Shown here one piece after another: positions 18,036 to 51,241 of a DNA stretch of 64,000 nt. Position 1 is the stretch's first letter, and each line of letters opens with the position of its first letter. The DNA is from Rubrivivax sp. (lineage in GTDB: Bacteria; Pseudomonadota; Gammaproteobacteria; Burkholderiales; Burkholderiaceae_C), in NCBI GenBank assembly GCA_027484825.1, contig JAIXSE010000006.1, positions 124,001 to 188,000 on the forward strand. The letters are read 5' to 3'. A program made the translations under genes and the position numbers. The notes beneath the pieces were generated by a model. The model saw only the letters and a program-made list of their open reading frames with translations. It had not been told where the DNA came from and searched no databases.

Positions 18036-19163
18036 TCAGCGCGGCTCGTTGCCCGGCAGCTTGCGGGGGTCGCCGCGAAACACCATCCACTTGGGAGTGC
18101 GAAAGCGCACGATGCGCCAGTAAAGCGCGACATAGGTGATGCCGAACAGCACCATGCAGGCCAGGATCATCGGCGTGGAGTCCCAGAACAGCAGGGCCGG
18201 GGCCAGCGACGAGATGCACAGCGTCCAGAGATAGGGCGCGGTCATCGAATTGCGCCGCGTCATGGCTCGGGCATCCCGTGCGCCAATCGCCCATCGCATC
18301 AGACGACGGTAGATGAGGGAGTGCAGATGGATGCCGTCCGGCGCGCCGGGGGAGACATCACGCAGCACACGGCGGCGGTAGATGGAGAAGAGCGTCTCGA
18401 ACACCGGGTAGATGCAGACCATCAGGGCGAATAGCGGCGACACCTCGCTGTGGCGGGAGATCAACAAGATGCCCATCTCGGCGAGGTAGAAGCCCATGAA
18501 ATAGGCCCCGCCGTCACCCAGGAAGATCATGCCGGCCGGATAGTTCCAGACGAAGAAGCCCAGGATGGCGCCCACGCCGGCCAGGGCCCAGAGTGCCAGT
18601 TCCACGTCGCCCACCTGGTAGGCAACATAGGCCAGCGTCAGCAGCATCAGGCTGACGCACATGGACGACAGGCCATTGAAGCCGTCGATGATGTTGACTG
18701 AATTGGCAACGCCCGCCACGGTGAAGACGGTGGCGACAAAGGCGCCGACGGCCGTGCCCACCACCAGGTCCAGGCCCGGAATGTCGGTGCGGGTGATGGC
18801 GGCGCCGAGCACGAACACCCCCAGCGCTGCCGACACGGCAGTGGCCAACAGGCGCTTTGCGGGTGACACCCGCTTGGTGAAGTCCTCGATCAGACCGGCG
18901 CCGAAGGCGGGCAGGCCGCACAGGAGCAGCAGGGCCCCCAGGCGGGCATGACCTGCACCCGGCACATAGTGCGCCGCCACGACCATGCCGGCCAAGCCCG
19001 CGAAGATGCCGACGCCGCCGATGCGGGGCACAGGACGAGCATGAAACTTCTGAGGGCCGGACAGATCATGGTCGGCCGACAGATGGCCATGCCGGGTCGA
19101 TGAATGCACCACATAGAGGGTGACCACCGCCGCCACGGCAAAAGGGATCAGCAGGAACAGCAT
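18036..19163 (-). CDS. WecA/MraY-family polyprenyl-phosphate sugar-1-phosphate transferase
   Basis: Integral membrane enzyme, 375 residues from ATG 19163, with about ten hydrophobic segments. It moves a sugar-1-phosphate from a UDP-sugar to undecaprenyl phosphate, the first step of O-antigen or EPS unit assembly. Signatures: ANSVNIIDGFNGLSS (metal and nucleotide binding), FLGDGGAYFMGF, and a His-rich cytoplasmic loop PDGIHLHSLIYRR. The substrate (GlcNAc or another HexNAc) cannot be read from sequence. It is divergent from the OPX gene, with a shared 132-bp upstream region. It is one of two initiating-transferase genes in the locus; the other is at 44389-44982. Confidence 0.88.
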   Translation of the reverse strand: MLFLLIPFAVAAVVTLYVVHSSTRHGHLSADHDLSGPQKFHARPVPRIGGVGIFAGLAGMVVAAHYVPGAGHARLGALLLLCGLPAFGAGLIEDFTKRVSPAKRLLATAVSAALGVFVLGAAITRTDIPGLDLVVGTAVGAFVATVFTVAGVANSVNIIDGFNGLSSMCVSLMLLTLAYVAYQVGDVELALWALAGVGAILGFFVWNYPAGMIFLGDGGAYFMGFYLAEMGILLISRHSEVSPLFALMVCIYPVFETLFSIYRRRVLRDVSPGAPDGIHLHSLIYRRLMRWAIGARDARAMTRRNSMTAPYLWTLCISSLAPALLFWDSTPMILACMVLFGITYVALYWRIVRFRTPKWMVFRGDPRKLPGNEPR

Positions 19164-19295
19164 GCGCGGCAGTGTAGCGAGCCCGTTTGGGCAAATAGCG
19201 GTTTTGACGCCACAACGTGCTCTTAGAATGCGGCGGCTTGCTGTCGGGGCTCTGGGGCCCTTGCAGGTTCGGTCCAGCTTTTCGTGAGACTTCGC
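19164..19295. promoter_or_regulatory. Divergent promoter region of the polysaccharide locus
   Basis: Shared upstream region of the WecA-like gene (minus) and the OPX gene (plus). A candidate plus-strand promoter has TTGACG at 19204-19209 and TAGAAT at 19224-19229, but the 14-bp spacing is shorter than the ideal 17. No clear operator was seen. Confidence 0.3.
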
Positions 19296-21347
19296 ATGCC
19301 TATCAGCGCCCTTCGCGCCCCTGTTCTGGCCGGTTCCGGTCTGACCCGACTGGCCCACTTGGCCCGCCATGCGGGCGCCGCCGTACTGGCTTGTGCATTG
19401 GGGGGCGGCCTGCTGGCGGCCCATGCAGCAGACAGCGACACCAACACATCCGGCTCGACGAGCTATTCGTCGGGCGGCGATAGTGCCACCGGTCCGATTC
19501 GGCTCAACACCGGTCGAAGCACGTCGGAGTCCACTCAAGGGGCAGCGTCCTCCTCGTCGGGCCAGAACGCGCTGAAGCCGCGCTACGTTCCCAACGAGTT
19601 CGAGATCTACGTCAACAAACAGCTGGGCATTGACCTTCAGCAACTGGAAGAGCAGCAGAAGCTGGAGCGACAGGCCGAGCGTGCCGGCACTCTGGCCGCG
19701 CAGAGCCAGACCAACACGACGGGCACCAAACGCATCAATCCCGACGGCGTGGTTCGCCGCTTGGGCGCGGACCTGATCCTGGACGAATCCCTGTCGGGCA
19801 ACGCGCTGGCCGATGGGCCGCGTGAAGCACCGGCCGACTATCTGATCGGCATTGGCGACGAAGTCCAGATCACCCTGTGGGGGTCGGTGGACGCTGATCT
19901 GCGTCTGACGGTGGACCGCAGCGGTCGCGTGACGATTCCTCGGGTCGGCCCCATCATGGTGGCAGGCGTCCGGTACGGCGACCTCAACGAGGTGGTGCGT
20001 TCACGGGTGAGCCAGGTCTTCAAGAACTTCCAGGTCAGCACGACCCTTGGCAAGCTGCGGTCGATCCGCATCTATGTCACCGGTTTCGTCTCGAAGCCGG
20101 GCTCCTACACGGTGAGCAGCCTGGCCACCGTGGTGTCCGGCCTGATCCGCGCCGGCGGCCCGTCGGGCGCAGGCAGCTTCCGCAACATTGAACTGCGTCG
20201 AAATGGGCAGTTGGTGGCGCAGTTTGACGCCTATGACTTCCTGCTCAAGGGTGACAAGAGCGCGGACCGTCCCCTGCAGGCGGAAGACGTGATCCACGTG
20301 GGCCCGATCGGCCCGCAGGTGGCCATCCTGGGCAGTGTCAACAAGGCGACCATCGGTGAATTGAAGCCGGCAGAAACCGTCGAGGATGTTCTGGCCATGG
20401 CCGGTGGATTCAGCGCCGTGGCCGACCGCGAGCGGGTGACGGTGGAGCGACTGAGCGACCGCACGGACCGTCGCATGGTCGAGCTTGCGCTGCCCCAGCA
20501 ATTGAAGGCGAGTGTGGGCAATGGCGATGTGCTGCGAGTGTTCAGTAGCGTCAATTCTGAACTGCCGCTGTACAAGCAATACAAGCGCGTGCAGGTGGAG
20601 GGTGAGGTGGCCCGACCCGGCGAATACGTGCTGCCGCCCAATGCGACCTTGCTGGATGCGGTGGCCGCCGCTGGCGGCCTGACGCCGCAGGCCTACATCT
20701 TCGGCACTGACTTCTCGCGGGAGAGCGTGCGCCGCTCTCAGCAGGAAAACTATGACCGCGCCTTGCGGGATCTGGAAACCGAGTTCACCCGCAACACCTC
20801 GACGCAGCGAACGGCCAGTGCCGATGAGGCGCAGGCCCAGGCAGCCCGAGCCAACAACACCTCGCGCCTGGTTGAGCGGCTGCGTGCCGTCAGACCGACT
20901 GGCCGCATCGTTCTGCAGTTGGAGCCAAACGCCACGACGCTGCCGCCTCTGACAGTGGAAAGCGGTGACCGGCTGCTGATTCCGGCTCGTCCCAACACGG
21001 TGGGCGTGTTTGGGAGTGTGTTCAACGGTGGCAGCTATCTGCTGACGGATGGAAGCTCGGTGGATGACGTGCTGAAGCTGGCTGGGGGGCCCACCCGTGG
21101 CGCGGATCCAGGCAGCATGTTTGTCCTGCGTGCCAACGGCAGCGTGATCAGCGCTCGCCAGTCCAGCAGCGGCTGGTTCGGCTTCAACTCCGCAATGGCC
21201 ACGCTGCCGGCGCTTCCGGGAGACACTGTGTTTGTGCCGGAAGAGCTGAACAAGACGACGTTCATCCAGGAAGCCAAGGACTGGACGCAGATCCTGTATC
21301 AGTTCGGGCTGGGTGTGGCGGCACTGCAGACGCTGAAGAACAACTGA
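19296..21347 (+). CDS. Outer-membrane polysaccharide export protein (Wza/OPX, SLBB domains)
   Basis: 683 residues from ATG 19296; a GTG at 19284 is an alternative start. N-terminal signal sequence (hydrophobic to about residue 46, AAHAADS). Poly_export domain around residues 165-250 (YLIGIGDEVQITLWG...LRLTVDRSGRVTIPRVG). Several SLBB repeats follow (GFVSKPGSYTV, GEVARPGEYVL, GSVFNGGSYLL). The C-terminus, FIQEAKDWTQILYQFGLG, is an amphipathic helix typical of this long OPX subclass. The protein forms the outer-membrane channel for a capsule or EPS. No lipobox cysteine is obvious in the signal region. First gene of the plus-strand block; wzz starts 3 bp after its stop. Confidence 0.92.
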   Translation: MPISALRAPVLAGSGLTRLAHLARHAGAAVLACALGGGLLAAHAADSDTNTSGSTSYSSGGDSATGPIRLNTGRSTSESTQGAASSSSGQNALKPRYVPNEFEIYVNKQLGIDLQQLEEQQKLERQAERAGTLAAQSQTNTTGTKRINPDGVVRRLGADLILDESLSGNALADGPREAPADYLIGIGDEVQITLWGSVDADLRLTVDRSGRVTIPRVGPIMVAGVRYGDLNEVVRSRVSQVFKNFQVSTTLGKLRSIRIYVTGFVSKPGSYTVSSLATVVSGLIRAGGPSGAGSFRNIELRRNGQLVAQFDAYDFLLKGDKSADRPLQAEDVIHVGPIGPQVAILGSVNKATIGELKPAETVEDVLAMAGGFSAVADRERVTVERLSDRTDRRMVELALPQQLKASVGNGDVLRVFSSVNSELPLYKQYKRVQVEGEVARPGEYVLPPNATLLDAVAAAGGLTPQAYIFGTDFSRESVRRSQQENYDRALRDLETEFTRNTSTQRTASADEAQAQAARANNTSRLVERLRAVRPTGRIVLQLEPNATTLPPLTVESGDRLLIPARPNTVGVFGSVFNGGSYLLTDGSSVDDVLKLAGGPTRGADPGSMFVLRANGSVISARQSSSGWFGFNSAMATLPALPGDTVFVPEELNKTTFIQEAKDWTQILYQFGLGVAALQTLKNN

Positions 21348-21350
21348 CGC

Positions 21351-22487
21351 ATGCAGATTCCGAAAGACGCACCGTCTCTCCTGGACCCAAGACTTCAGCC
21401 TCAAGCGATGACCGACGCCTCTGAACACGACCTTACCTTGACCGAGATCACCAGCGCGATCCGGAAGAGCTGGAAGAAGATCCTGGCCGGCGCTGTGATG
21501 GCTGGCCTCGCCGGATATGGCGTGGCACTGCTAATGGCGCCGGTGTACACGGCGAAGACCACATTCATCATGCCGCAGCAGCAGCAGAATTCCGCCGTGG
21601 CGGCTCTTTCTTCGCTTGGCGCGCTCACAGGCATTGGCGGCACCAGCTCGGCCAAGGGGTCGGCAGATCAGTACGTCGCCATCATGGGCAGCGTGACAGT
21701 GGGCGACCGGATGCTGGACCGCTTCAAGCTGGTGGATCTGTATGAGGCAAAGTTCCGCACGGATGCGCGCAAGATCCTGGAGAGCAACTCCCGGTTCACT
21801 GTGGGGAAGAAGGACAACATCATTGCCATTGAGGTCGATGACGAGACTCCCCAGCGGGCAGCGGAAATGGCCAACGCCTATGTTGACGAACTGAGAAAGG
21901 TCACTGCGACCCTGGCCCTGACCGAGGCCCAGCAGCGCCGGGTGTTCTTCGATGAGCAGCTCGTGAAGACAAAGGCCGCGCTCATCGCCGCCCAGATCAC
22001 GCTGCAGAAAACGGGATTCAACGCGGGCGCCATCAAAAGTCAGCCTGCTGCTGCCGCAGAAGCTTATGCACGGGTGAAAGCGGAAATCGTGACCAACGAA
22101 GTCCGTCTGGAAGCATTGCGCCGCAGCCTCACCGACAACTCGCCAGAGGTTCAGCAATTGCAGGCGGGGCTTTCGCGATTGCGAGAACAGCTCAAGCAGT
22201 ACGAAAGCCCGGCCACCGACAGTAGCAACCAGGACTACATCTCAGCCCTGCGTGATTTCAAATACCAGGAAGCACTCTTCGAGAATTACGCCAAGCAACT
22301 AGAGCTGGCGAAGTTGGATGAAGCGCGGGACGGCACCCTGATCCAGGTCCTGGACCCGGCGACACCCCCGGAGCGCCGCAGCAAGCCCAAGCGCATGATC
22401 ATCGGCGCGGTCAGTGGTTTCGCAGCGGGCCTGATCCTTGTTGTGATGGCGATCACACGCCAGCGTAGGCGGCCTGTCGCGCCCTGA
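21351..22487 (+). CDS. Wzz-type chain-length determinant protein
   Basis: 378 residues from ATG 21351; an internal ATG at 21408 (MTDASEHDL) gives a more typical N-terminus. Two transmembrane helices (about residues 44-64 and 352-371) flank a long periplasmic domain with coiled-coil character (about 170-285). The Pro-rich PATPPERRSKPKR just before TM2 is the classical Wzz signature. There is no fused tyrosine-kinase domain, so it belongs to the O-antigen or short PCP class. It would set the modal chain length of the polymer made by the Wzy at 38572. Confidence 0.9.
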   Translation: MQIPKDAPSLLDPRLQPQAMTDASEHDLTLTEITSAIRKSWKKILAGAVMAGLAGYGVALLMAPVYTAKTTFIMPQQQQNSAVAALSSLGALTGIGGTSSAKGSADQYVAIMGSVTVGDRMLDRFKLVDLYEAKFRTDARKILESNSRFTVGKKDNIIAIEVDDETPQRAAEMANAYVDELRKVTATLALTEAQQRRVFFDEQLVKTKAALIAAQITLQKTGFNAGAIKSQPAAAAEAYARVKAEIVTNEVRLEALRRSLTDNSPEVQQLQAGLSRLREQLKQYESPATDSSNQDYISALRDFKYQEALFENYAKQLELAKLDEARDGTLIQVLDPATPPERRSKPKRMIIGAVSGFAAGLILVVMAITRQRRRPVAP

Positions 22488-22537: not shown

Positions 22538-22915
22538 ATGCCCTCGCCCGACCCCGACCATGATCCTGATCCGGGTCTTGACTACGAACTGCTCCGCCAG
22601 CTCGATGCCAAGAACGACAGCAACCAGCGCGACTTGGCTAAGCGGTTGGGTGTGAGCGTGGGCAAGATCAACTATTGCATCCGGGCCGTCATTGACAGAG
22701 GCTGGGTGAAAGCCAACAACTTCCGCCGCTCGGACAACAAGCTGGCCTACATCTATATCCTGACTCCCAGCGGTGTCCAGGCCAAGATGCGGCTGGCACG
22801 CAGGTTTCTGGCGCACAAGGAAGAGGAATTTGAGCGGCTTCAGCACGAGATCGATGCGTTGCGCTCTGAGGTGTCTCGCGCCGAGGCCTTGAGTGAAGAC
22901 AAGAAGAACGCTTGA
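22538..22915 (+). CDS. EPS-associated MarR-family transcriptional regulator
   Basis: 125 residues. The winged helix-turn-helix is at about residues 16-75 (LLRQLDAKNDSNQRDLAKRL...GKINYCIRAVIDRGWVKANNF), followed by a coiled-coil tail (LAHKEEEFERLQHEIDALRSEVSRAEAL). This combination is that of the small MarR-like regulator found in betaproteobacterial exopolysaccharide loci. It sits exactly between the export genes and the CDP-sugar genes, and a perfect palindrome lies just upstream, suggesting autoregulation and control of the downstream sugar genes. Confidence 0.87.
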   Translation: MPSPDPDHDPDPGLDYELLRQLDAKNDSNQRDLAKRLGVSVGKINYCIRAVIDRGWVKANNFRRSDNKLAYIYILTPSGVQAKMRLARRFLAHKEEEFERLQHEIDALRSEVSRAEALSEDKKNA

Positions 22916-22947: not shown

Positions 22948-23940
22948 ATGTCAGCCATCACCATCAGCAGCGGCAGGGCCTTTGAAGCACGCGACAACGA
23001 GGTCATTCTCGACGCCGCGTTGCGCCAGGGGGTCGTGCTTGACTACAGCTGCCGGACCGGACGTTGCAGTTCCTGCAAGGGCCGGGTGCGTAGTGGTGAC
23101 ACCATCGCCTCCCACGACGAAATAGGCCTAAGCGCAGAGGAAAAGGCCCAAGGCTTCATCCTTACCTGCGTGCGGCGTGCCTGCGGCCCGGTGGACCTGG
23201 AGATCAACGATCTCGGGGATGTTCATCTACCGGAACCTAAGACCGTGCCGTGCCGGATCCAGTCTTTGGAGAAGATCTCCCACGACGTGATGCACGTGGT
23301 GCTACGCCTGCCTCCGGGCAGTGCACTGGATTTCCTGCCGGGCCAGTACATTGACGTCATTGGTGCTGAAGGTTTGCGCCGCAGCTACTCGGTGGCCAAC
23401 GCCCCGCGCGAAGACAGACAGTTGGAGCTCCACATCCGCCACGTGCCTGGCGGCGCCATGAGCGCGTACTGGTTCGAACAGGCAAAGGCCAACGACCTGT
23501 TGCGTTTGCGCGGCCCGCTCGGCACCTTCTTTCTGCGTGGTCAGGCCAACCGCCATCTCGTGCTGCTGGCGACGGGCACAGGGATTGCACCCGTCAAGGC
23601 CATTTTGGAAGATCTGGCGCGACGTCCAGCCGAGGAGCAACCGCTCTCCATCACGGTCTATTGGGGGGGACGCCATGAGGACGACCTCTACTGGCACGCC
23701 GCTGAACAGCCTGGACTGCGCTTCGTGAGAGTGCTCTCCCGAGCCGACGAAAGCTGGACCGGTGCCCGCGGCTACGTCCATGAGGTGTTGCTGAGCGAGG
23801 TACAGAACCTGTCCCAAACCCTGGTGTACGCGTGCGGCTCTGACGCCATGATCCACAGTGCGCAGGCGCGCCTGAAAGCCGCTGGCCTGCCTGACCCAAA
23901 TTTCCACTCCGACGCCTTTGTGTGCTCGGCGGCTACGTGA
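22948..23940 (+). CDS. ascD: CDP-6-deoxy-delta-3,4-glucoseen reductase (E3, AscD/DdhD)
   Basis: 330 residues from ATG 22948 with AGGGAA upstream; a TTG at 22912 is less likely. The plant-ferredoxin-type [2Fe-2S] domain has Cys35, Cys40, Cys43 and Cys74 (YSCRTGRCSSC, LTCVRRAC). Next comes the FAD domain (RRSYSVANAP), then the NAD(P) domain (ATGTGIAPVKAIL). It passes electrons from NADH to RfbH (E1) to complete C3 deoxygenation of CDP-4-keto-6-deoxyglucose. The adjacent rfbF-rfbG-rfbH genes make this assignment firm. Product: CDP-3,6-dideoxy-4-ketohexose. Confidence 0.9.
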   Translation: MSAITISSGRAFEARDNEVILDAALRQGVVLDYSCRTGRCSSCKGRVRSGDTIASHDEIGLSAEEKAQGFILTCVRRACGPVDLEINDLGDVHLPEPKTVPCRIQSLEKISHDVMHVVLRLPPGSALDFLPGQYIDVIGAEGLRRSYSVANAPREDRQLELHIRHVPGGAMSAYWFEQAKANDLLRLRGPLGTFFLRGQANRHLVLLATGTGIAPVKAILEDLARRPAEEQPLSITVYWGGRHEDDLYWHAAEQPGLRFVRVLSRADESWTGARGYVHEVLLSEVQNLSQTLVYACGSDAMIHSAQARLKAAGLPDPNFHSDAFVCSAAT

Positions 23941-23955
23941 TCGATAGGAACATCC

Positions 23956-24729
23956 ATGAAAGCAGTCATCCTGGCCGGTGGCCTTGGCACACGCCTCAGC
24001 GAAGAGACGGCCCTGCGCCCCAAGCCCATGGTGGAAATCGGGGGCAAGCCCATTCTCTGGCACATCCTCAAGATGTACTCGCAACACGGGGTGAATGACT
24101 TCGTGATCTGCTGTGGCTACAAGGGCTATGTGATCAAGGAGTACTTCGCCAATTACTTCCTGCACATGTCCGACGTCACCTTCGACATGCGCAGCAACCG
24201 CATGGAAGTCCACCACAAGCGAGCCGAACCCTGGAACGTCACCCTGGTGGACACCGGCGATGACTCCATGACGGGCGGCCGTCTCAAGCGGGTGAGCGAC
24301 TACGTCCGCAACGACGAAGCCTTCTGTTTCACCTACGGGGATGGCGTCAGCGACGTCAACATCAGCGCTGCCATCGACTTCCATCGCCAGCATGGCAAGG
24401 CGGCCACCCTCACCGCCACCTACCCACCGGGCCGCTTCGGCGCCCTGGACATCGACGGACACCAGGTCCGCCGCTTCATGGAAAAGCCCAAGGGCGACGG
24501 CGCCATGATCAACGGCGGTTTCTTTGTCCTGTCCCCCCGCGTGCTGGACTATCTGGAAGACGACAGCACGGTCTGGGAACAAGCTCCCCTGCAAGGGCTG
24601 GCTGCCGACGGCGAACTGATGGCCTTCGAGCACACCGGCTTCTGGCAACCCATGGACACGTTGCGGGACAAGAACTACCTGGAAGAACTGTGGGCCTCCG
24701 GCAAGGCCCCATGGAAGACCTGGAAATGA
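23956..24729 (+). CDS. rfbF: Glucose-1-phosphate cytidylyltransferase
   Basis: 257 residues, the usual length. Makes CDP-glucose from glucose-1-phosphate and CTP, the first step to CDP-3,6-dideoxyhexoses. The nucleotidyltransferase signature [18 protein letters not shown] begins at residue 1, with [17 protein letters not shown] next. [12 protein letters not shown] carries the metal-binding aspartates. The stop overlaps the rfbG ATG (ATGA at 24726-24729). Confidence 0.96.
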
Positions 24730-25829
24730 TCACGGCACATACAGACCCGGCCTTCTGGCGGCGCAAGCGCGTCCTGCTGACCGGGCACACCGGCTTCAAG
24801 GGAAGCTGGATGAGTCTGTGGCTTCAGGCGATGGGGGCGCAGCTGCGTGGCATCGCCCTGGCGCCTCCAACGGAGCCGGCACTGTTTGACGTGGCCCGCG
24901 TGGCGCAGGGCATGGAGCACCGTGTCGTGGATATCCGCGACCTCGCAGCGGTCCAGGCCCAGATGAACGAGTTCCGGCCGGAGATCGTCATCCACATGGC
25001 GGCCCAGCCGCTGGTGCGGCTGTCCTATCAGCAGCCGGTGGAGACCTACGCCACCAACGTCATGGGCACGGTCCACGTCCTGGAGGCGGCGCGTCAGGTC
25101 GGCTCGGTCAAGGCCATCGTCAATATCACCACAGACAAGTGCTACGAGAACCGGGAATGGGTCTGGGGGTATCGTGAAGACGAACCCATGGGCGGCCATG
25201 ACCCCTACTCCAACAGCAAAGGCTGTGTCGAGCTGGTGAGCAGTGCCTACCGGCGATCCTTCCTGAAGGACGCCGGCATTGCGATGGCCACTGTCCGCGC
25301 CGGCAATGTCATCGGCGGCGGAGACTGGGCTGCCGACCGGCTGCTGCCGGACATCCTGCGCGCCTTGCAGGCCGGTGAACCGGTGCTGATCCGCAATCCC
25401 CACGCCATCCGCCCCTGGCAGCATGTGCTGGAGCCGCTCTCCGGTTATCTGCTGCTGGCCGAGCGCCTGTATCTGAATGGTCAGACCGACGCCGAGGGCT
25501 GGAACTTCGGCCCGCGCGACGAAGACGCTCGCCCGGTCCAGTGGATCGTCGAGCATCTCTGCAAGCAGTGGGGCCATGGCGCAAGCTGGACCCTGCAGCC
25601 CGGCAACCATCCCCACGAGGCCCACTTCCTCAAGCTGGATATTTCCAAGGTGCGCCAGCGCCTGCAATGGGCACCGCGGTGGTCCCTGGAGACTGCCCTG
25701 ACCCGCATCACTGAATGGCACCAGGCCTGGCTCCAGGGCCAGGACATGCATGCCGTCTGCCTCGCGCAGATTTCCTCGTACAACGCCGCGAACACCGCCT
25801 CGAACCACGATCAACGAGCCCAAGCATGA
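24726..25829 (+). CDS. rfbG: CDP-glucose 4,6-dehydratase
   Basis: 367 residues from ATG 24726, coupled to rfbF. Extended SDR with NAD-binding [10 protein letters not shown] (19-28), TDK at 136-138 and the catalytic pair Tyr161/Lys165 (YSNSK). Converts CDP-glucose to CDP-4-keto-6-deoxyglucose. The RfbG-type [15 protein letters not shown] start distinguishes it from dTDP-glucose dehydratases. The stop overlaps the rfbH start by 4 bp. Confidence 0.96.
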
Positions 25830-27178
25830 GCACTTCCCCCGTCAACTTCCAACCGCAGCTGGACAAGCTGCGCAGCCAGATCAGCGAGCTGGTCCAGCAA
25901 TATGCGGACATCGCCTATGCGCCCAAGCCGTTCGTGCCGGGCCAGACCGCCGTGCCGGTCTCAGGCAAGGTGATTGGTGCGAAGGAACTTCAGCTGATGG
26001 TCGAGGCCTCGCTGGACGGCTGGCTCACCACCGGCCGCTTCAATGCGCAGTTCGAGCAGCGTCTGGCGCAGTTCCTGGGCGTGAAGTACCTGATCACGGT
26101 GAACTCCGGTTCGTCGGCCAACCTGGTGGCCTTCTCGGCCCTGACCAGCCCCAAGCTGGGCGACCGCGCCATCAAGCAAGGTGACGAGGTGATCGGCGTT
26201 GCCGCAGGTTTCCCCACCACGGTCAACCCCATCATCCAGTTTGGCGCCGTGCCGGTGTTCGTGGACGTGGATCTGACCACGCACAACATCGACGCGAGCA
26301 AGATCGAAGCCGCCATCACCCCCAAGACCAAGGCCATCATGCTGGCCCACAGCCTGGGCAACCCGTTCAACCTGGACGTGGTGACGGCGCTGTGCAAGAA
26401 GCACAACCTGTGGCTGGTGGAAGACTGCTGCGACGCCCTGGGCGCCACCTACGACGGCAAGCTGGTGGGCACCTTCGGTGACATCGGCACGCTGAGCTTC
26501 TACCCCGCCCACCACATCACCATGGGCGAAGGCGGTGCGGTGTTCACCAACAACCCCGAGCTCAAGCTGATCGCCGAATCGTTCCGCGACTGGGGCCGTG
26601 ACTGCTACTGCCCGCCCGGCAAGGACAACACCTGCGACAAGCGCTTCTGCTGGACCAAGAAGGACCTCGGCGGCGACCTACCTGACGGCTACGACCACAA
26701 GTACACCTACAGCCATCTGGGCTACAACCTCAAGATCTCCGACATGCAGGCGGCCTGTGCGCTGGCACAGATGGACCGCGTCGAGGAGTTCATTGCCAAG
26801 CGACGCGCCAACTTCGCCTACCTGAAGAATCGGCTGCAAAGCTGCGCCGAGTTCCTTCACCTGCCGGAAGCCACGCCGAAGTCCGAGCCCTCCTGGTTTG
26901 GTTTCCCGCTGGTGCTGAAGGAAACGGCCGGCGTGAAGCGCGCGGACCTGATCAACTTCCTGGAAGAGAACAAGATCGGCACCCGTTTGCTGTTCGCCGG
27001 CAACCTGACCAAGCAGCCCTACATGGCTGGCCGCAACTATCGCGTCAGCGGCGAGCTGACCAACACCGACGTGGTGATGAACCAGACCTTCTGGCTGGGC
27101 ACCTTCCCGGCGCTGGGTGAGCCGCAGCTGGACTACATCGCTGACAAGCTTGAAGAGTTTTTCGGGCTCAACTTCTGA
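25826..27178 (+). CDS. rfbH: CDP-4-keto-6-deoxyglucose 3-dehydrase (E1, RfbH/DdhC)
   Basis: 450 residues from ATG 25826. A PMP-dependent dehydratase of the aminotransferase fold that removes the C3 hydroxyl. In place of the Schiff-base lysine it has histidine (His229 in [14 protein letters not shown]), the mark that separates RfbH from true aminotransferases. A cysteine cluster at Cys260, Cys262, Cys270 and Cys275 fits the [2Fe-2S] site of E1. Works with the E3 reductase at 22948. Next gene starts 13 bp downstream. Confidence 0.95.
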
Positions 27179-27191
27179 TCGGACATCTCCC

Positions 27192-29009
27192 ATGAGCAAC
27201 GAAGTCAAGGTCAGCGACCAGGTCGCCGTGCTGCTGGAGCAGCTCGGCATCCGTCATGCGTTCGGCATCATCGGCGCCGGCAATGTCCATCTGTTCGAGT
27301 CAATCACCCGCCACGGCTATACCGAGATCGTCTGTGTGCATCACGAGCAGGCCGCGACGATGGCCATGCAGACGTATTACCGCACTCACGGCAAGCTGGC
27401 GGCCGCGCTACTCACCACGGGCGGCGGGTCGACCAACGGCGTCACTGGCGTGGTGTCTGCGTGGGCGGACTCGATCCCCGGGCTGGTCATTGCGGGCAAC
27501 GAGAATGGCAAATTCTGCTACCCGGACAACCCGCAGCGCATGTGGGGCGTGCAGGGCTACGACTCCGTGCAGATGGTCGAGAAGGTCACGAAGTACGCCA
27601 GTCGCGTCAGTGATCCTATTCAGACGCTTTACGAACTGGAGAAGGCCGCCTTTATTGCAACGGACCGCAGACCCGGCCCTGTGTGGGTCGAAATCCCTAT
27701 GAGCGTGCAGTCCGCACGCGTGGAGGTAGACACGTTTGCGCGCTTCGAACCCCAGGTCGAACCGCGCCTGGCGCCCTCACCGGATGCGGTCAGACACGTC
27801 GCCCAGGCGTTGCGTGCAGCCCAGCGTCCGGTGCTGTGGCTTGGACACGGCATTCGCCTGGCCGGCGCCACGCGCGAGCTGGAAGCACTGGTCAACCAGT
27901 TGGATGTGCCAGTGCTCGTGAGCTGGGCTGGCATCGATATGCTGGACTCCAACCATCCGCGGGTCTATGGACGCGCTGGCGTCTATGGTCAGCGCGCCGC
28001 CAACTTCGTACTCCAAAACAGCGACTACGTGCTGTCCATTGGCAACAGAATGGCGATTCCGCAGGTCGGCTACGACCTGAGCGAGCTGGCGCGTGGCGCG
28101 CAGATCGATGTGGTGGACATTGATGAAACCGAAGGGACCAAGTTGGGCGATCGCGTGCGCGCCTTCATCCACGCCGATGCCGGTGCCTTCATCGATGCGC
28201 TGAGCGCCGCCACGGAACAGGGAGTGGGCGTCAAGACCGAATGGTTGGCGCAATGCGATCAGTACCAGGAGGAATTCCCCTGGATCGGCTCCGAGCATGC
28301 CGACCCGGAAGGATTCATCAACTCCTACCGCTTCATGGAGCGGCTCAACCGTGTCTTCAAGCCCGACCAGAAAGTCGTGACGGACATGGGGACAGCGCTT
28401 CTGTGCGGCCACCAGGTCCTGAAGTTCGAACCCGGCCAGCGCCTGATGACCTCAACAGGCCTGGGCGAAATGGGCTATGGCTTGCCCGCCGCGATCGGCG
28501 TGTCCTTCGCGACGGACCGTGGCGAAGTCATGTGCCTGAACTGTGATGGCGGCATGATGATGAACTTGCAGGAACTGCAGACCATCGCCCATCATCGCCT
28601 CCCCATCAAGCTGTTCATCTTCAACAATGACGGCTACCTGATGATCAAGCACACACAAAACGCTTTGTTCAACAAGGCGGGTTATGTGGGCACCAACAAG
28701 ACTTCTGGCTTGTCCTGTCCTGATTTCAGCAAGGTGGCAGCAGCCTTTGACATGCCAGCATTCCAGATTCGCGGTTGGCAAGAGTGCGACGATGTGCTGG
28801 CTCAGGTCCAGGCCGCCGAAGGCCCGGTGATCTGCGAGGTCTTCATGCACCCCGAACAGTTGTTCGTACCCAAGCTGTCCGTGGCACAGACGCCGCAGGG
28901 CGCGCTTGTGTCGCCGCCGCTGGAAGACCTGTCGCCGCTGCTGCCAAAGGAGAAGCTGGAGAAGGCCATGCTGGTGGGCGTCCACGAGAAGTCCACCACT
29001 CTCCGCTGA
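27192..29009 (+). CDS. Thiamine-diphosphate-dependent carboligase/decarboxylase (acetolactate-synthase fold)
   Basis: 605 residues from ATG 27192; the open frame extends upstream into rfbH but without homology. The N-terminal PYR domain has the activating Glu52 (CVHHEQAATMA) and GGGSTNGVTGV. A central Rossmann-like domain spans about 195-340. The C-terminal PP domain has the ThDP/metal motif at 451-479, beginning NCDGG and ending FNN, with Cys451 replacing the usual first Gly of GDG. Same superfamily as YerE, which adds an acetyl unit from pyruvate to CDP-3,6-dideoxy-4-ketohexose for yersiniose. Here the next two genes make 4-hydroxy-2-oxovalerate, so that 2-oxo acid is a more likely donor. 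The donor is inference; the fold is clear. Confidence 0.85.
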   Translation: MSNEVKVSDQVAVLLEQLGIRHAFGIIGAGNVHLFESITRHGYTEIVCVHHEQAATMAMQTYYRTHGKLAAALLTTGGGSTNGVTGVVSAWADSIPGLVIAGNENGKFCYPDNPQRMWGVQGYDSVQMVEKVTKYASRVSDPIQTLYELEKAAFIATDRRPGPVWVEIPMSVQSARVEVDTFARFEPQVEPRLAPSPDAVRHVAQALRAAQRPVLWLGHGIRLAGATRELEALVNQLDVPVLVSWAGIDMLDSNHPRVYGRAGVYGQRAANFVLQNSDYVLSIGNRMAIPQVGYDLSELARGAQIDVVDIDETEGTKLGDRVRAFIHADAGAFIDALSAATEQGVGVKTEWLAQCDQYQEEFPWIGSEHADPEGFINSYRFMERLNRVFKPDQKVVTDMGTALLCGHQVLKFEPGQRLMTSTGLGEMGYGLPAAIGVSFATDRGEVMCLNCDGGMMMNLQELQTIAHHRLPIKLFIFNNDGYLMIKHTQNALFNKAGYVGTNKTSGLSCPDFSKVAAAFDMPAFQIRGWQECDDVLAQVQAAEGPVICEVFMHPEQLFVPKLSVAQTPQGALVSPPLEDLSPLLPKEKLEKAMLVGVHEKSTTLR

Positions 29010-29054
29010 AGGCCAACCCGGCGCCTCCACGTTTATCAAGTTACGGAAATATCG

Positions 29055-29936
29055 ATGGCTACGAAAAAGACCCGTGTCGCGATCCTTGGCACCGGCAATA
29101 TTGGCACTGATCTGCTGATCAAAGCCATGCGCTCGGATTCGCTCGAATGCGCTTTGTTCGTGGGACGCAACCTGCGTTCCGAAGGCATGCAGAAAGCCAG
29201 CCAGTTGGGAGCGCCCATCTCCGACCGGGGACTCGATGCCATCGTGCAGCAAGCCGACGACATCGACATCGTCTTTGATGCGACGTCGGCGGCTGCTCAC
29301 CTCGAACATTGGCCCGTGCTGCAAAAGCTCGGCAAGACTGTCATCGACATGACACCCGCCAAGGTCGGTGACCTCTGCGTGCCCGCGATCAACAGTGACC
29401 AAGTGATTGCCAGCCGCGCGCAGAACATCAACATGATCACCTGCGGCGGCCAGGCCTCGGTGCCCATTGCCAATGCAATCGCCGCTGTGCAGGACAACAT
29501 CGAGTACATCGAGGTTGCCTCCAGCATCGCCTCGCGAAGTGCGGGTCCCGCCACCCGTGCCAACCTCGATGAATACATCGAGACCACTGAACAGGCCCTG
29601 GTCAAGTTCAGCCGCGCCAAGCAGGCCAAGGCGATCCTGATCCTGAACCCGGCGCGCCCGCCCATCGACATGCAGACCACCATCTACGCGAAGATGAACA
29701 ACCCGGACATTCCGGCCATCCGCGCCTCGGTCGAGGAGATGATGAATCGCATCACCCAGTACGTCCCCGGGTACCAGCTCATCGTCCCGCCCACCCTGGA
29801 CGGCGGTCGGGTCATGACGACGGTGAAAGTCTTGGGCAACGGGGATTACCTGCCGCGCTATGCCGGCAACCTGGACATCATCAACTGTGCGGCCATCGGC
29901 ATTGCCGAGCGAATCGCACGTCAACGCGCGGAGTGA
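29055..29936 (+). CDS. Acetaldehyde dehydrogenase (acylating), DmpF/MhpF family
   Basis: 293 residues. Interconverts acetyl-CoA and acetaldehyde with NAD(H). Rossmann motif ILGTGNIGTDLL (10-21), catalytic Cys130 in MITCGGQASVPIANA, and the family segment EVASSIASRSAGPATRANLDEYI. The usual partner, a 4-hydroxy-2-oxovalerate aldolase, starts 5 bp after its stop, so the channelled DmpF-DmpG complex is likely conserved. There are no aromatic meta-cleavage genes nearby. In a sugar cluster the biosynthetic direction, acetyl-CoA to acetaldehyde, is the more sensible one. Confidence 0.92.
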   Translation: MATKKTRVAILGTGNIGTDLLIKAMRSDSLECALFVGRNLRSEGMQKASQLGAPISDRGLDAIVQQADDIDIVFDATSAAAHLEHWPVLQKLGKTVIDMTPAKVGDLCVPAINSDQVIASRAQNINMITCGGQASVPIANAIAAVQDNIEYIEVASSIASRSAGPATRANLDEYIETTEQALVKFSRAKQAKAILILNPARPPIDMQTTIYAKMNNPDIPAIRASVEEMMNRITQYVPGYQLIVPPTLDGGRVMTTVKVLGNGDYLPRYAGNLDIINCAAIGIAERIARQRAE

Positions 29937-29941
29937 ACGTC

Positions 29942-30973
29942 ATGAGCAAGAAAATCCTGATCAGCGACCCGACCCTGCGTGATGGCAACCATGCGGTGCG
30001 CCACCAGATCTCGCAGGAGCATTTTGCGGCTTACTGTGCCGCCGCCGACGCTGCCGGCGTGCCCATCGTCGAGGTGGGGCACGGCAACGGTCTCGGTGCT
30101 TCGTCCATGCTGGTGGGCGAATGCGCCCTCACGGACGAGACCATCCTCAAGACCGCCCGCGAGAACCTGACGCGTTCCAAGATGGCCATCCATGCCATCC
30201 CCGGCTTCTGCACCATTCACCGCCATGTGGCCATGGCCATGGATTTAGGCGTGGACGTGTTCCGCATCGCCTCCCATTGCACGGAGGCAGACATCACCCA
30301 GCGTCATATCGAGTACGTGCGCAAGCGCGGCAAGGAAGTCTACGGTGTGCTGATGATGAGCCACATGGCCTCTCCCGAAACGCTGGCGGATGAAGCGCTC
30401 AAGATGGAAGCCTATGGCGCGGAGGGTCTGGTGATCATGGACTCTGCCGGCGCCTACCTACCGGCCGATGTGACCCGCCGTATCAGCACGCTGGTCAATG
30501 CGCTCAGCATTCCCGTGGGCTTCCACGCTCACAACAACCTCGGCATGGGCATCGCCAACTCGGTGGCTGCCGTGGAAGCGGGTGCCACCATCATCGATGG
30601 CAGCGCTCGCGGCTTTGGCGCTGGCGCAGGCAATGCGCAGCTGGAAGTCCTCGTGGCGGTCTTCCAGCAGATGGGCTTCGAGACCGGCATCGACCTCTAC
30701 AAGATGCTGGACGCAGCCGATCTGGCCGAGAAGACCATGGTCAAGTCCATGCCCTACATCTCGTCCACCAGCATCGTCAGCGGCATGTCGGGGGTGTTCT
30801 CCGGCTTCATCCGCCAAGTCAACAGCGTCGGCGCCGAACATGGGGTCGATCCGCGCGACATCTTCTTTGAACTGGGCCGCCGCAACGCGGTTGCAGGGCA
30901 GGAAAGCCTGATCCTTGAAGTAGCCCTGGCTTTGAAGGCGAAACAATCGCAGTCGGAGGTGTCTCATGCCTGA
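29942..30973 (+). CDS. 4-hydroxy-2-oxovalerate aldolase, DmpG/MhpE family
   Basis: 343 residues from ATG 29942; a GTG at 29933 overlaps the previous stop. Metal-dependent pyruvate aldolase: DPTLRDGNHAVRHQ (residues 9-22) holds the Arg/Asp/His set, and His195 and His197 (GFHAHNN) are metal ligands. The C-terminal partner-binding domain is present (FIRQVNSVGAEHGVDPRDIFFELGRRNAVAGQES). From memory, DmpG/BphI have GYAGVYSSF at the site where this protein has GMSGVFSGF (281-289), so both tyrosines are replaced. Predicted to join pyruvate and acetaldehyde, feeding the ThDP enzyme. Overlaps the next gene by 8 bp. Confidence 0.92.
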   Translation: MSKKILISDPTLRDGNHAVRHQISQEHFAAYCAAADAAGVPIVEVGHGNGLGASSMLVGECALTDETILKTARENLTRSKMAIHAIPGFCTIHRHVAMAMDLGVDVFRIASHCTEADITQRHIEYVRKRGKEVYGVLMMSHMASPETLADEALKMEAYGAEGLVIMDSAGAYLPADVTRRISTLVNALSIPVGFHAHNNLGMGIANSVAAVEAGATIIDGSARGFGAGAGNAQLEVLVAVFQQMGFETGIDLYKMLDAADLAEKTMVKSMPYISSTSIVSGMSGVFSGFIRQVNSVGAEHGVDPRDIFFELGRRNAVAGQESLILEVALALKAKQSQSEVSHA

Positions 30974-32057
30974 TCCAGTCGCACACGCCCTCCGGCAGGA
31001 CTGCCTCGCATCGCTGCGGTTGCAGCCGCAACTCGCGCAGCGCCTGCAAGGGCACCGAATCGCCGTCATCGGCGGCACCGGTTTTGTTGGGACGTGGCTG
31101 GCGGAGACTGTGGCAACGCTGAACGACGAGTTGGATGGACGTGTGCGTCTGGATCTCTTGGGGCGTTCTGTGGGCGCCTGGAAGGCCGCGCATCCCCAAC
31201 TGGCGTCGCGAGATGACGTGCACGTGAGCATGGCTGACGTGCGCTCGGCCTTTGAACTCGCGGGCGATACCACCCTGGTGCTGTACGCTGCAGGCGTTGC
31301 GGATCCTCGTGTGCATGCCTCTGATCCCTACCGCGTTCACGAGACGGCACTGCAAGGGATCAGTCACTCGCTGGCAGCCTCTGCGCGGCTGCAATCCCTG
31401 CAGCGCTTCTTGAACATCAGCTCAGGTCTGGTGGCGGGCAGCAGTGGAAAGGAAGGCGGGCAGAAGGAGCAGGACATCGATGTTCTCGACTTCACACGCG
31501 TTCACAACGTCTACGCAGAATCCCGCCGCGCCGCCGAAAATCTTGTCAGCCTCTACGCCAGCCAGTACCGCATCCCCGTCGCGACCGCACGTGCATTCAC
31601 GTTCCTTGGAGCCTTCCAGCCCCTGGATGCGCCCTGGGCCTTGAACAACTTCGTTCGGGACGCTCTGTCCGGCAATGACATTCGGCTACACGGCGACGGT
31701 GCGACCCGCCGAAGCTATCTGTATGGCAGCGACGTCGCCGCCTGGCTTCTACGCATGCTGATCGATGCACAGGACGGTGTCGTCTACAACCTGGGGGGGG
31801 GCGAACCCCTGAGCCATGCCGATGCTGCGGCCATCGTTGCGGAACGCACGCTGCCCACGCCCCAACTGATCTACAAGAGCCAACCTGCGGCATCGGGTCG
31901 CCGTCATGATTTCTTCCCCGACCTCCAGCACGTCCAGGCGACGCTCGGGCTGCGCCAGGCTTTCACGAATACGCAGGCCATCGAACGATTGATGCACTGG
32001 CATGCGCAGGGTCTGGGAGTGATGCGCCGCCTGCGTCCGGAGAGCGCTTCCGCATGA
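30966..32057 (+). CDS. Extended-SDR NAD-dependent epimerase/reductase, first copy
   Basis: 363 residues. NAD-binding GGTGFVG at 36-42 after an N-terminal extension of about 30 residues. ISSGLVAG is the serine strand. The catalytic pair is Tyr183 with Arg at 187 (VYAESRRAAE) instead of the usual Lys. The substrate-side region includes GDGATRRSYLYGSDVA and YNLGGGEPLS, typical of nucleotide-sugar SDRs. Overlaps the aldolase by 8 bp and the second SDR by 4 bp, so it is part of the same pathway. Candidate ketone reductase or epimerase for the branched sugar; which of the two is not decidable from sequence. Confidence 0.78.
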   Translation: MPDPVAHALRQDCLASLRLQPQLAQRLQGHRIAVIGGTGFVGTWLAETVATLNDELDGRVRLDLLGRSVGAWKAAHPQLASRDDVHVSMADVRSAFELAGDTTLVLYAAGVADPRVHASDPYRVHETALQGISHSLAASARLQSLQRFLNISSGLVAGSSGKEGGQKEQDIDVLDFTRVHNVYAESRRAAENLVSLYASQYRIPVATARAFTFLGAFQPLDAPWALNNFVRDALSGNDIRLHGDGATRRSYLYGSDVAAWLLRMLIDAQDGVVYNLGGGEPLSHADAAAIVAERTLPTPQLIYKSQPAASGRRHDFFPDLQHVQATLGLRQAFTNTQAIERLMHWHAQGLGVMRRLRPESASA

Positions 32058-33109
32058 GCGGCAATGCCCTGGGCAGTGACCACCGCCATGGCGAGGGTCC
32101 GCACATCTTCGTGACAGGGGGCACAGGCTTCTTCGGCAAAGCACTGCTGCGCCATTGGGCCGGAGGCACTGTGCCCGGGATGGTGGGGGCACGCATCACG
32201 CTGCTGTCCAGGGATCCTGCGCGTTTTCGCGCCGCGTGCGGGGACCTCCTCGCAACGCCCCCCGGCCACCTGGATGTACGCCTGGTCGCTGGAGACATTC
32301 AGCAGCCGGACAGCCTGCCCGTGGGCGATTACACGCATCTCCTGCATGCCGCTACCGATTCGACCGCCACGGCGACGCTCACCCCGTTGCAACGTTTCGA
32401 CCAGATCGTCGCGGGCACCCGTCATGTGCTCGACCTGGCCGTACGTTGCGGAAAACCGCGCGTACTTCTGACCAGTTCGGGAGGGGTCTACGGCCCCCAA
32501 CCGCCTGACATGGCCGCCGTGCCAGAAACCTATGCTGGCATGCCGGACCCGCTCCGCCCGGCCAACGCCTACAGCGTGGGCAAACGGGCGGCAGAACACC
32601 TCGCGGCGCTCTACCACGACGCCTACGGGCTGGACACCGTGGTGGCTCGCTGCTTCGCCTTCGTCGGACGCGATCTGCCGCTGGATGCGCACTACGCCAT
32701 CGGCAACTTCATGGGCGATGCGCTCGCGGGCAGAGCGATTCTCGTGCAGGGGGACGGCACCCCTCTTCGCTCTTATCTCGATCAGCGCGACCTTGCCGAA
32801 TGGCTTACGGTGCTGATGCTGCAGGGCCAGCCGCAGCGGGCCTACAACGTGGGATCTGACGAAGCCATCTCGATTCGGGATCTGGCCTCTCTCGTGGCGC
32901 GCCTGGCCGACACCGGTAGCGAGGTTCGCATACTTGGGCAGGCACCTGCGGGAGAGTCGGCCGGCCGCAACCGCTATGTTCCCGACATCGCCCTCGCCGC
33001 TGGGCTGGGCTTGCGCCCTCGGTACCGCCTCTGCGAGGCCATCCAGGAAGCCATGGCGCACTTGCGCCAGCGTATGGCGACATCAACCTCGACACCCTTT
33101 CGCGAGTGA
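32054..33109 (+). CDS. Extended-SDR NAD-dependent epimerase/reductase, second copy
   Basis: 351 residues. NAD-binding TGGTGFFG at 21-28, LLTSSGGVYGPQPP with the catalytic Ser, and an intact Tyr173/Lys177 (AYSVGKRAAEH). GDGTPLRSYLDQRDLAEW and YNVGSDEAISIRDLA follow the nucleotide-sugar SDR plan. Coupled by 4-bp overlaps to the first SDR and to the flippase gene. Possible roles are reduction of the side-chain ketone left by the ThDP enzyme, C2 epimerisation, or a CDP-paratose/abequose-synthase-like reduction of the 4-ketone. Confidence 0.8.
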   Translation: MSGNALGSDHRHGEGPHIFVTGGTGFFGKALLRHWAGGTVPGMVGARITLLSRDPARFRAACGDLLATPPGHLDVRLVAGDIQQPDSLPVGDYTHLLHAATDSTATATLTPLQRFDQIVAGTRHVLDLAVRCGKPRVLLTSSGGVYGPQPPDMAAVPETYAGMPDPLRPANAYSVGKRAAEHLAALYHDAYGLDTVVARCFAFVGRDLPLDAHYAIGNFMGDALAGRAILVQGDGTPLRSYLDQRDLAEWLTVLMLQGQPQRAYNVGSDEAISIRDLASLVARLADTGSEVRILGQAPAGESAGRNRYVPDIALAAGLGLRPRYRLCEAIQEAMAHLRQRMATSTSTPFRE

Positions 33110-35505: not shown

Positions 35506-36639
35506 GTGAAAAAAGTGCTCATCGTCTTCGGTACCCGCCCGGAAGCCATCAAGATGGCACCCGTCGTGCGGGCTTTGCGCGGCCAACCGTGGCTGGACAC
35601 CAAGGTGTGCGTCACCGCCCAGCACCGGGCCATGCTGGATCAGGTGCTGTCGCTGTTCGAGATCGTGCCTGATCATGACCTGAACTTGATGTCCAGCGCC
35701 CAATCGCTGGAGGGGATCTCCGCCCGCATCCTGGAATCACTGTCCAAGGTCCTGGATGACGAACGTCCGGATATCGTCCTCGTACATGGCGACACCACCA
35801 CAACAGCCATGGCGTCATTGGCCTGCTTCTACAAGCGTATTCCGGTGGGTCACGTCGAAGCAGGCCTGCGGACCGGCAACCTCATGTCGCCCTGGCCAGA
35901 GGAACTGAACCGCCGTCTGAGCGGGCTGATTGCCCATCTCCACTTCGCTCCCACGCAAACCTCAGCCGGGAACCTGCTCGCGGAAAAAGTGGATCCGGCC
36001 ACGGTGGACATCACCGGCAACACCGTCATCGACGCATTGCTGCAGGTCACCAACCGATTGAAGCAAGATGCCGCCCTGAGCGCGCCTCTGGACGAGCGCT
36101 TCAGCTTCTTGCGCAGCGACCGCAAACTGGTGCTGGTCACCGGCCATCGCCGGGAAAACTTCGGCGATGGCATGCGTGAGATCTGCGATGCGCTTCTGAC
36201 ACTGTCCGGCCGTGACGACGTCCAGATCGTCTATGCCGTGCACCTGAACCCCAATGTGAAGGGACCTGTGGAATCGACCTTGGGAGACCAGCCCAACATT
36301 CACCTGATTCCGCCCCAGGACTACTTGGCATTTGTCTACCTGATGATGCGCAGCCACATCATCCTGACGGACAGCGGAGGCATCCAGGAGGAAGCGCCTT
36401 CGCTCGGCAAACCGGTGCTGGTCATGCGCGACACCACCGAGCGTCCTGAGGCAGTCAGTGCAGGCACCGCGCGCCTGGTCGGCGCCAAGGCTGACGCCAT
36501 CACTGCGGGCATCAGTCGCCTCCTTGACGAGCCGGGTGCCTATGAAGCCATGGCAACCGCCAGCAACCCCTACGGGGACGGCAGGGCCGCCGAGCGGATT
36601 ACCCAGCGCATCCACCGGTTCCTGGGCGAGTCCGCATGA
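35506..36639 (+). CDS. wecB: UDP-N-acetylglucosamine 2-epimerase (non-hydrolysing)
   Basis: 377 residues from GTG 35506. Interconverts UDP-GlcNAc and UDP-ManNAc. N-terminus [30 protein letters not shown] and [26 protein letters not shown] are all canonical WecB motifs. No WecC (UDP-ManNAc dehydrogenase) is in the window, so ManNAc itself may be incorporated. A related role as a 2-epimerase for UDP-diacetamido-uronate (WbpI type) is possible because WbpB/D/E homologues are encoded in the opposite block. One base separates it from the GT2 gene. Confidence 0.92.
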
Positions 36640-51237: not shown

Positions 51238-51241
51238 GGGA

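Follow-up and report, generated by a model that had tools for sequence, protein, structure and literature searches.

A predicted route to an erwiniose-type, C4-branched CDP-sugar in a Rubrivivax polysaccharide locus with a 4-hydroxy-2-oxovalerate aldolase pair

Introduction

Why would a polysaccharide locus hold, beside genes for a dideoxysugar, an acylating acetaldehyde dehydrogenase and a 4-hydroxy-2-oxovalerate aldolase, a pair familiar from aromatic degradation? The question is raised by nine genes in a stretch of 64,000 nt from Rubrivivax sp. (assembly GCA_027484825.1, contig JAIXSE010000006.1, positions 124,001 to 188,000), referred to below as the window and in which all positions are counted. 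The answer put forward here, from sequence comparison, is that the cluster probably furnishes an exported polysaccharide with a C4-branched, erwiniose-type sugar, activated with cytidine diphosphate (CDP), the aldolase pair being the putative supplier of the donor for a thiamine diphosphate (ThDP) enzyme. The dehydrogenase, the aldolase, the short-chain dehydrogenase/reductase (SDR) that follows it and the ThDP enzyme are called the cassette.

Gene content and proposed pathway

The nine genes run co-directionally on the + strand from 22948 to 33109, with short gaps or overlaps; coordinates and family matches confirm in this respect a first-pass annotation of the same DNA, which had named all nine.

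22948-23940, + strand: E3-type 2Fe-2S/FAD/NAD reductase (DdhD-like), with Fer2, FAD_binding_6 and NAD_binding_1 domains and a Cys-rich 2Fe-2S motif
23956-24729, + strand: rfbF, glucose-1-phosphate cytidylyltransferase (TIGR02623, 486 bits, above cut-off)
24726-25829, + strand: rfbG, CDP-glucose 4,6-dehydratase (TIGR02622, 506 bits, above cut-off)
25826-27178, + strand: rfbH, CDP-4-keto-6-deoxyglucose 3-dehydratase (E1), with His-His and a Cys cluster (PRK15407, 744 bits, above cut-off)
27189-29009, + strand: JanthE-type ThDP carboligase, with three TPP Pfam domains, first Met codon at 27192 and 951 bits to PDB 8rph
28542-28550, + strand: CDG cofactor motif of the carboligase (Cys451-Asp452-Gly453, numbered from 27192), replacing the usual GDG
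29055-29936, + strand: acylating acetaldehyde dehydrogenase, DmpF/BphJ-like (TIGR03215, 398 bits against a cut-off of 282)
29933-30973, + strand: 4-hydroxy-2-oxovalerate aldolase, DmpG/BphI-like, of the cassette clade, with a DmpG communication domain (TIGR03217, 379 bits against a cut-off of 286)
30191-30193, + strand: His codon at the BphI Leu87 / DmpG Leu88 position of the aldolase
30797-30799, + strand: Phe codon at the BphI Tyr290 / DmpG Tyr291 position of the aldolase
30966-32057, + strand: SDR1, an extended SDR directly after the aldolase, of nucleotide-sugar SDR fold, probable reductase of the new ketone
32054-33109, + strand: SDR2, a second extended SDR (Pfam Epimerase)

The set for CDP-3,6-dideoxyhexose synthesis (DdhA-D) is complete in the window, consisting of RfbF, RfbG, RfbH and the E3-type reductase. 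RfbH carries His-His where related aminotransferases have the lysine that binds pyridoxal phosphate, together with a Cys-rich stretch, a combination which we take to be the mark of E1 dehydratases. In the pathway proposed, these four enzymes would convert glucose-1-phosphate into CDP-3,6-dideoxy-4-ketoglucose. The dehydrogenase would turn acetyl-CoA into acetaldehyde and pass it to the aldolase, which, working in the synthetic direction, would join it to pyruvate; the 4-hydroxy-2-oxovalerate so formed would most likely have the 4R configuration. The ThDP enzyme would decarboxylate this acid and place the resulting 3-hydroxybutanoyl unit on the C4 ketone of the sugar, and SDR1 (or SDR2) would reduce the new ketone to give a 4-C-(1,3-dihydroxybutyl)-3,6-dideoxyhexose, which has the same carbon skeleton as erwiniose.

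The ThDP enzyme

Among solved structures, PDB entry 8rph matches the ThDP enzyme over its full length (951 bits, residues 3-605), the runners-up being acetolactate synthases at about 220 bits. The entry is titled 'thiamine pyrophosphate-binding protein' only; it is taken to be JanthE of Janthinobacterium sp. HH01, because the CDG motif is present and the residue numbers of JanthE fit with an offset of one. When the residues whose roles are discussed for JanthE (V121, Y268, P293, Y297, H494 and K567; PMC12188165) are placed by hand on the 8rph alignment with this offset, all are found in the window enzyme, which also retains CDG, given as the distinguishing motif of JanthE (PMC12247030). This likeness suggests a YerE-like carboligase of the JanthE type, for which activity on the ketone of a CDP-4-keto sugar is predicted.

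JanthE has been studied as a biocatalyst: in vitro it accepts 4-hydroxy-2-oxovalerate with benzaldehyde and also takes pyruvate and longer 2-oxo acids, and its physiological substrates are stated as not identified (PMC12188165). In the text of that paper the term 'gene cluster' is absent and 'aldolase' occurs in the introduction only. ErwE of Pectobacterium atrosepticum, likened here by its described chemistry, is YerE-like in its coupling and is assigned to erwiniose, with a hydroxylated 2-oxo acid and CDP-4-keto-3,6-dideoxyglucose as substrates; in vitro its donors are 4-hydroxy-2-oxo acids but not pyruvate, as demonstrated with an analogue of the sugar (PMC12247030). YerE, from yersiniose A synthesis in Yersinia pseudotuberculosis, performs the same kind of ThDP-dependent carboligation at C4 of a CDP-3,6-dideoxy-4-keto sugar, but its donors are pyruvate and 2-oxobutyrate only (PMC12247030). 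MMAR_2332 of Mycobacterium marinum (caryophyllose), again compared by description, is YerE-like, with a donor preference similar to that of ErwE (PMC12247030), and serves a longer C4 branch, a hydroxylated arm of six carbons.

The first-pass annotation knew of no characterised enzymes for such a route, a statement that fails where the coupling is concerned: assays exist for ErwE, JanthE and MMAR_2332, although use of the natural CDP-sugar is not reported in the available parts of these papers. The coupling chemistry is already in print for a relative, and the supply of the donor is what this locus adds. The link to the aldolase may already be known to the authors of the original papers; literature on this aldolase together with polysaccharide or O-antigen yielded nothing relevant at the level of titles and the first lines of abstracts.

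The ThDP gene is found in two of 16 genomes of the genus, counting that of the window, whose host is related to Roseateles; the other carrier is Roseateles sp. YR242 (locus L049), and such a patchy spread is usual for surface polysaccharides. A plasmid search with the protein gave no match at E 1e-100.

Linkage of the aldolase pair to JanthE-type enzymes

Named genomes were scanned with an alignment (A1) of five JanthE-type enzymes, which returned 105 relatives, the best 80 being retained; their loci include many metagenome bins and a few near-copies, and the scan pattern itself contains CDG, so that this motif in the relatives does not count as a result. Among these best 80 of 105, the aldolase gene is present in 74 loci, the dehydrogenase gene in 75 and both in 74, a retention across homologous loci that excludes chance co-location. 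Dehydrogenase and aldolase are co-stranded wherever both occur (74/74), at most 150 bases apart in 70 loci, and 68 of the 74 have an SDR1-like gene directly 3′ of the aldolase. The ThDP gene precedes the pair in 48 loci, follows it in 24 and lies on the opposite strand in 2, and this variation of gene order among recurring loci argues for function rather than accident. Distances for the ThDP enzyme and for the aldolase are correlated (r 0.91, 53 loci; 0.82 with rfbH). The CGGQ motif of the dehydrogenase is found in 70 of 72 proteins longer than 200 amino acids, the window protein included, with exceptions in L058 and L089; its Cys is presumably the catalytic Cys of acylating acetaldehyde dehydrogenases.

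Genome samples drawn blind to gene context (60, 399 and 369 genomes, overlapping) contain four other JanthE-type loci (L027, L028, L041 and L042), and all four carry the pair, with aldolases of the His/Phe kind described below. In contrast, the pair is found by tblastn in none of 16 further YerE-like loci from these samples (15 loci of 20 kb and one of 5 kb), many of which do have SDR2-like genes. The search was also reversed, with a profile of cassette aldolases run against the 399 family genomes. It gave more than 100 matches, 30 of them with their loci examined; among the matches listed, four exceed 600 bits and the rest reach at most 359. Three of the four cassette-type aldolases (window included) have a JanthE-type ThDP gene close by, and the remaining one stands at a contig start; one of the three, G887, is by its gene positions the same contig as L047 and gives no independent evidence of linkage.

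The first-pass annotation had proposed that a DmpF/DmpG-like pair, working in the synthetic direction, feeds 4-hydroxy-2-oxovalerate to a YerE-like ThDP enzyme. This idea gains computational support from the homology to JanthE and the use of that acid by JanthE (PMC12188165), from the donor range of ErwE (PMC12247030) and from the presence of the pair in 74/80 versus 0/16 loci.

The aldolase and the configuration of its product

The window aldolase resembles the aldolases of the DmpG/DmpF and BphI/BphJ pairs of aromatic degradation in fold, in catalytic residues and in its partnership with an acylating dehydrogenase. Its model (mean predicted local distance difference test score, pLDDT, 91.6) superposes on DmpG (1nvm) with a template modelling (TM) score of 0.92, and the metal and acid/base residues of DmpG, Arg17, Asp18, His21, His200 and His202, are kept in 74/74 cassette aldolases. 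A quick tree of 99 aldolases separates the 74 cassette members (the window and 73 from named loci) from 25 others, among them DmpG and E. coli MhpE, with 99% support in the Shimodaira–Hasegawa-like approximate likelihood ratio test (SH-aLRT), the long branches L145 and L146 being placed unsurely. The 73 named loci bear 12 phylum labels (Pseudomonadota, Bacteroidota, Verrucomicrobiota, Bdellovibrionota, Acidobacteriota, Gemmatimonadota, Armatimonadota, Actinomycetota, Spirochaetota, Hydrogenedentota, Walliibacteriota and Omnitrophota), most of the rarer ones resting on one metagenome bin each.

Residues were compared between 76 distinct cassette aldolases, the window included, and 48 of catabolic type (46 from genome searches in Burkholderiales, plus MhpE and DmpG), leaving aside the truncated L126, one identical cassette copy, G084 (L145 and L160, the same gene twice) and G164 (L146). 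Columns were counted if their conservation reached 97% in each set, which gave 62, and three of them differ between the sets: Leu88 to His, Tyr291 to Phe and Asp331 to Glu in DmpG numbering. On our reading of the alignment, BphI numbers run one lower, so that Leu88 and Tyr291 of DmpG match its Leu87 and Tyr290, which control stereochemistry. These two positions are His/Phe in 76/76 cassette aldolases and Leu/Tyr in 48/48 of the catabolic type; four solved aldolases, their alignments judged by eye, also have Leu and Tyr, and the divergent non-cassette aldolases of G084 (Ile/Tyr) and G164 (Phe/His) do not have His/Phe either. Three differences thrown at random on 62 columns strike both stereo-controlling positions in 60 of 37,820 draws (0.16%), a figure that ignores the freedom of each column to vary.

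Wild-type BphI makes the 4S acid exclusively, its Tyr290Phe variant loses stereocontrol, and the double variants Leu87Asn/Tyr290Phe and Leu87Trp/Tyr290Phe switch the product to 4R (PMC3962088, PMC4012138). The window aldolase thus lacks the Leu87/Tyr290 combination of the 4S-specific catabolic DmpG/BphI aldolases, and its His/Phe alters the same two positions as the double variants, with the same Phe at 290; those are man-made, however, and have Asn or Trp where the cassette has His. From this correspondence, the product of window-type aldolases is probably (4R)-4-hydroxy-2-oxovalerate, unlike the 4S acid of the catabolic pair. Erwiniose is 3,6,8-trideoxy-4-C-[(R)-1-hydroxyethyl]-D-gulo-octose, a name not found in the literature examined, and a Fischer projection of this name drawn by hand makes C7 R, which would fit a 4R donor and is no test of it.

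A more doubtful variant keeps the pathway and has the aldolase yield the 4S acid as its catabolic relatives do, or else both enantiomers, with His/Phe serving channelling or rate. In its favour, the single Tyr290Phe exchange in BphI loses stereocontrol without inversion, and His is absent from the variants described at position 87 (PMC3962088); additionally, the cassette aldolases form one clade, so that each change may be as little as a single event. Against it, the stereo-controlling positions make up two of the only three fixed differences among the 62 shared conserved columns, and His, being polar and bigger than Leu, departs from it in the same sense as the residues of the designed variants.

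It is unlikely, though BphI takes longer aldehydes as well (PMC3962088) and ErwE takes C4 to C6 4-hydroxy-2-oxo acids (PMC12247030), that the aldehyde added to pyruvate is some other short one (propionaldehyde, or one with a hydroxyl group), giving a longer or more hydroxylated, caryophyllose-like arm. The acylating dehydrogenase is co-stranded with the aldolase in 74/74 loci, and that of the window passes the TIGR03215 cut-off. Moreover, at the position of BphI Leu89, whose exchange for Ala admits long aldehydes (PMC3962088, PMC4012138), the cassette aldolases have Ile (65) or Met (9; n=74), and because this chain-length-limiting position stays bulky, acetaldehyde is favoured and a longer aldehyde is thought unlikely.

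Aldolases of this family were also met outside the cassette. Locus L186 (9008-10669, G164) encodes a divergent DmpG-kind aldolase, 33% identical to DmpG, with Tyr/Phe/His at His21/Leu88/Tyr291, which adjoins the genes for PseB, PseC and PseF of the pseudaminic acid route; the family may there have been taken up by a further sugar pathway. L185 (G084, Ile/Tyr) and L187 (G328) have DmpG-like aldolases, 40 to 45% identical to the window aldolase and to DmpG alike, each with an acetaldehyde dehydrogenase and near BenC/PaaE-kind reductases.

Proposed reduction of the branch ketone

SDR1 is favoured for reducing the new ketone and probably does so, since its gene follows that of the aldolase and its model (mean pLDDT 94.6) is that of a nucleotide-sugar SDR. 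Among the 50 structures listed, the best TM score by query length, 0.81, belongs to a Campylobacter jejuni reductase of CDP-glucitol synthesis and the lowest E-value to a UDP-xylose synthase. The usual SDR lysine, located by pattern in 74 SDR1-like proteins, is Lys in 50 and Arg in 3, the pattern failing in 21. Because SDR1 of the window carries Arg at this position, SDR2 may share or replace its role there.

Points against the proposal

Several observations weigh against an erwiniose-type sugar built with (4R)-4-hydroxy-2-oxovalerate. JanthE uses pyruvate and other 2-oxo acids, so that the enzyme alone leaves the donor unfixed; E3-like genes of at least 250 bits occur in just 10/80 loci; rfbH is weak in L041 and L042 (about 205 bits); SDR1 of the window has Arg in place of the usual lysine; and the engineered BphI variants carry Asn or Trp at 87, never His. 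Finally, four loci (L052, L074, L102 and L106) have a JanthE-type ThDP gene without the pair, two more of the six loci lacking one or both genes, L048 and L112, being cut by contig ends. The flanks covered are 10 kb on each side in L106, 10 and 9 kb in L102, 5 and 10 kb in L074 and 8 and 4.6 kb in L052, and the last two are less telling than L102 and L106 because their flanking sequence is shorter. In L052 and L074 another SDR (Pfam Epimerase) stands immediately 3′ of the ThDP gene.

The pair-less loci have features of their own, neighbour gene names in these four loci and in L049 and L186 having been tested against Pfam/NCBIfam. The group member in L074 (5175-7010, 63% identity) has GDG in place of CDG and no pair in the sequence covered. 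L102 (7280-9150) and L106 (7914-9784) have CDG-type ThDP genes with rfbFGH and no aldolase pair, and genes for transketolase N- and C-terminal domains lie just upstream of the ThDP gene (in L106 the second gene only was searched), hinting at an alternative donor supply.

JanthE does accept pyruvate in vitro (PMC12188165) and in aromatic degradation the pair has a catabolic role (mhp operon), but a two-carbon unit from pyruvate, as in yersiniose, with the pair a bystander or degrading 4-hydroxy-2-oxovalerate, is very improbable given that no hydratase or hydrolase partner is seen among the neighbours searched, that TIGR03217 at E 1e-60 has one match in the whole genome, the window aldolase, that the pair is tied to JanthE-type enzymes and missing from the 16 other YerE-like loci, and that cassette aldolases separate from catabolic ones in the tree. 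A catabolic role of the pair as such was rejected for the lack of catabolic partners among the neighbours searched, the single genomic copy and the separate branch. The first-pass remark that aromatic-degradation genes are missing nearby holds for the part of the window covered, none being seen among 29 window proteins searched against Pfam.

Neighbouring genes

The nine-gene run sits within a polysaccharide locus, whose other members include glycosyltransferases and the following.

18036-19202, - strand: WecA-like transferase
19284-21347: SLBB exporter
21351-22487: Wzz
35506-36639: WecB-like epimerase

SDR2 is followed by a protein of 465 amino acids that by eye resembles a flippase and has no Pfam family match. 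Directly upstream of the E3 gene, 22538-22915 encodes a small winged-helix (HTH_24/MarR-like) protein, a possible regulator; a protein with a similar start occupies the same spot in Roseateles sp. YR242 (L049 5377-5736). A second polysaccharide block lies on the - strand at 47023-52411, with two glycosyltransferases, a hexapeptide protein, a flippase-family protein and a DegT aminotransferase. The enterobacterial WzyE family was found in 0/143 and 0/340 genomes of two overlapping class samples.

Biological meaning

Beyond the single locus, we lean, with some reserve, towards the view that the cassette has recruited a channel of aromatic degradation for sugar synthesis, that its aldolase is a natural counterpart of the engineered BphI double variants and that the 4R acid is the physiological donor of JanthE-type enzymes. 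If true, this would answer the stated open question of the cellular substrate of these enzymes, and it would predict the arm of the branched sugars for over 70 genomes and metagenome bins. It also suggests that evolution altered the same two residues as engineers did to invert a pyruvate aldolase.

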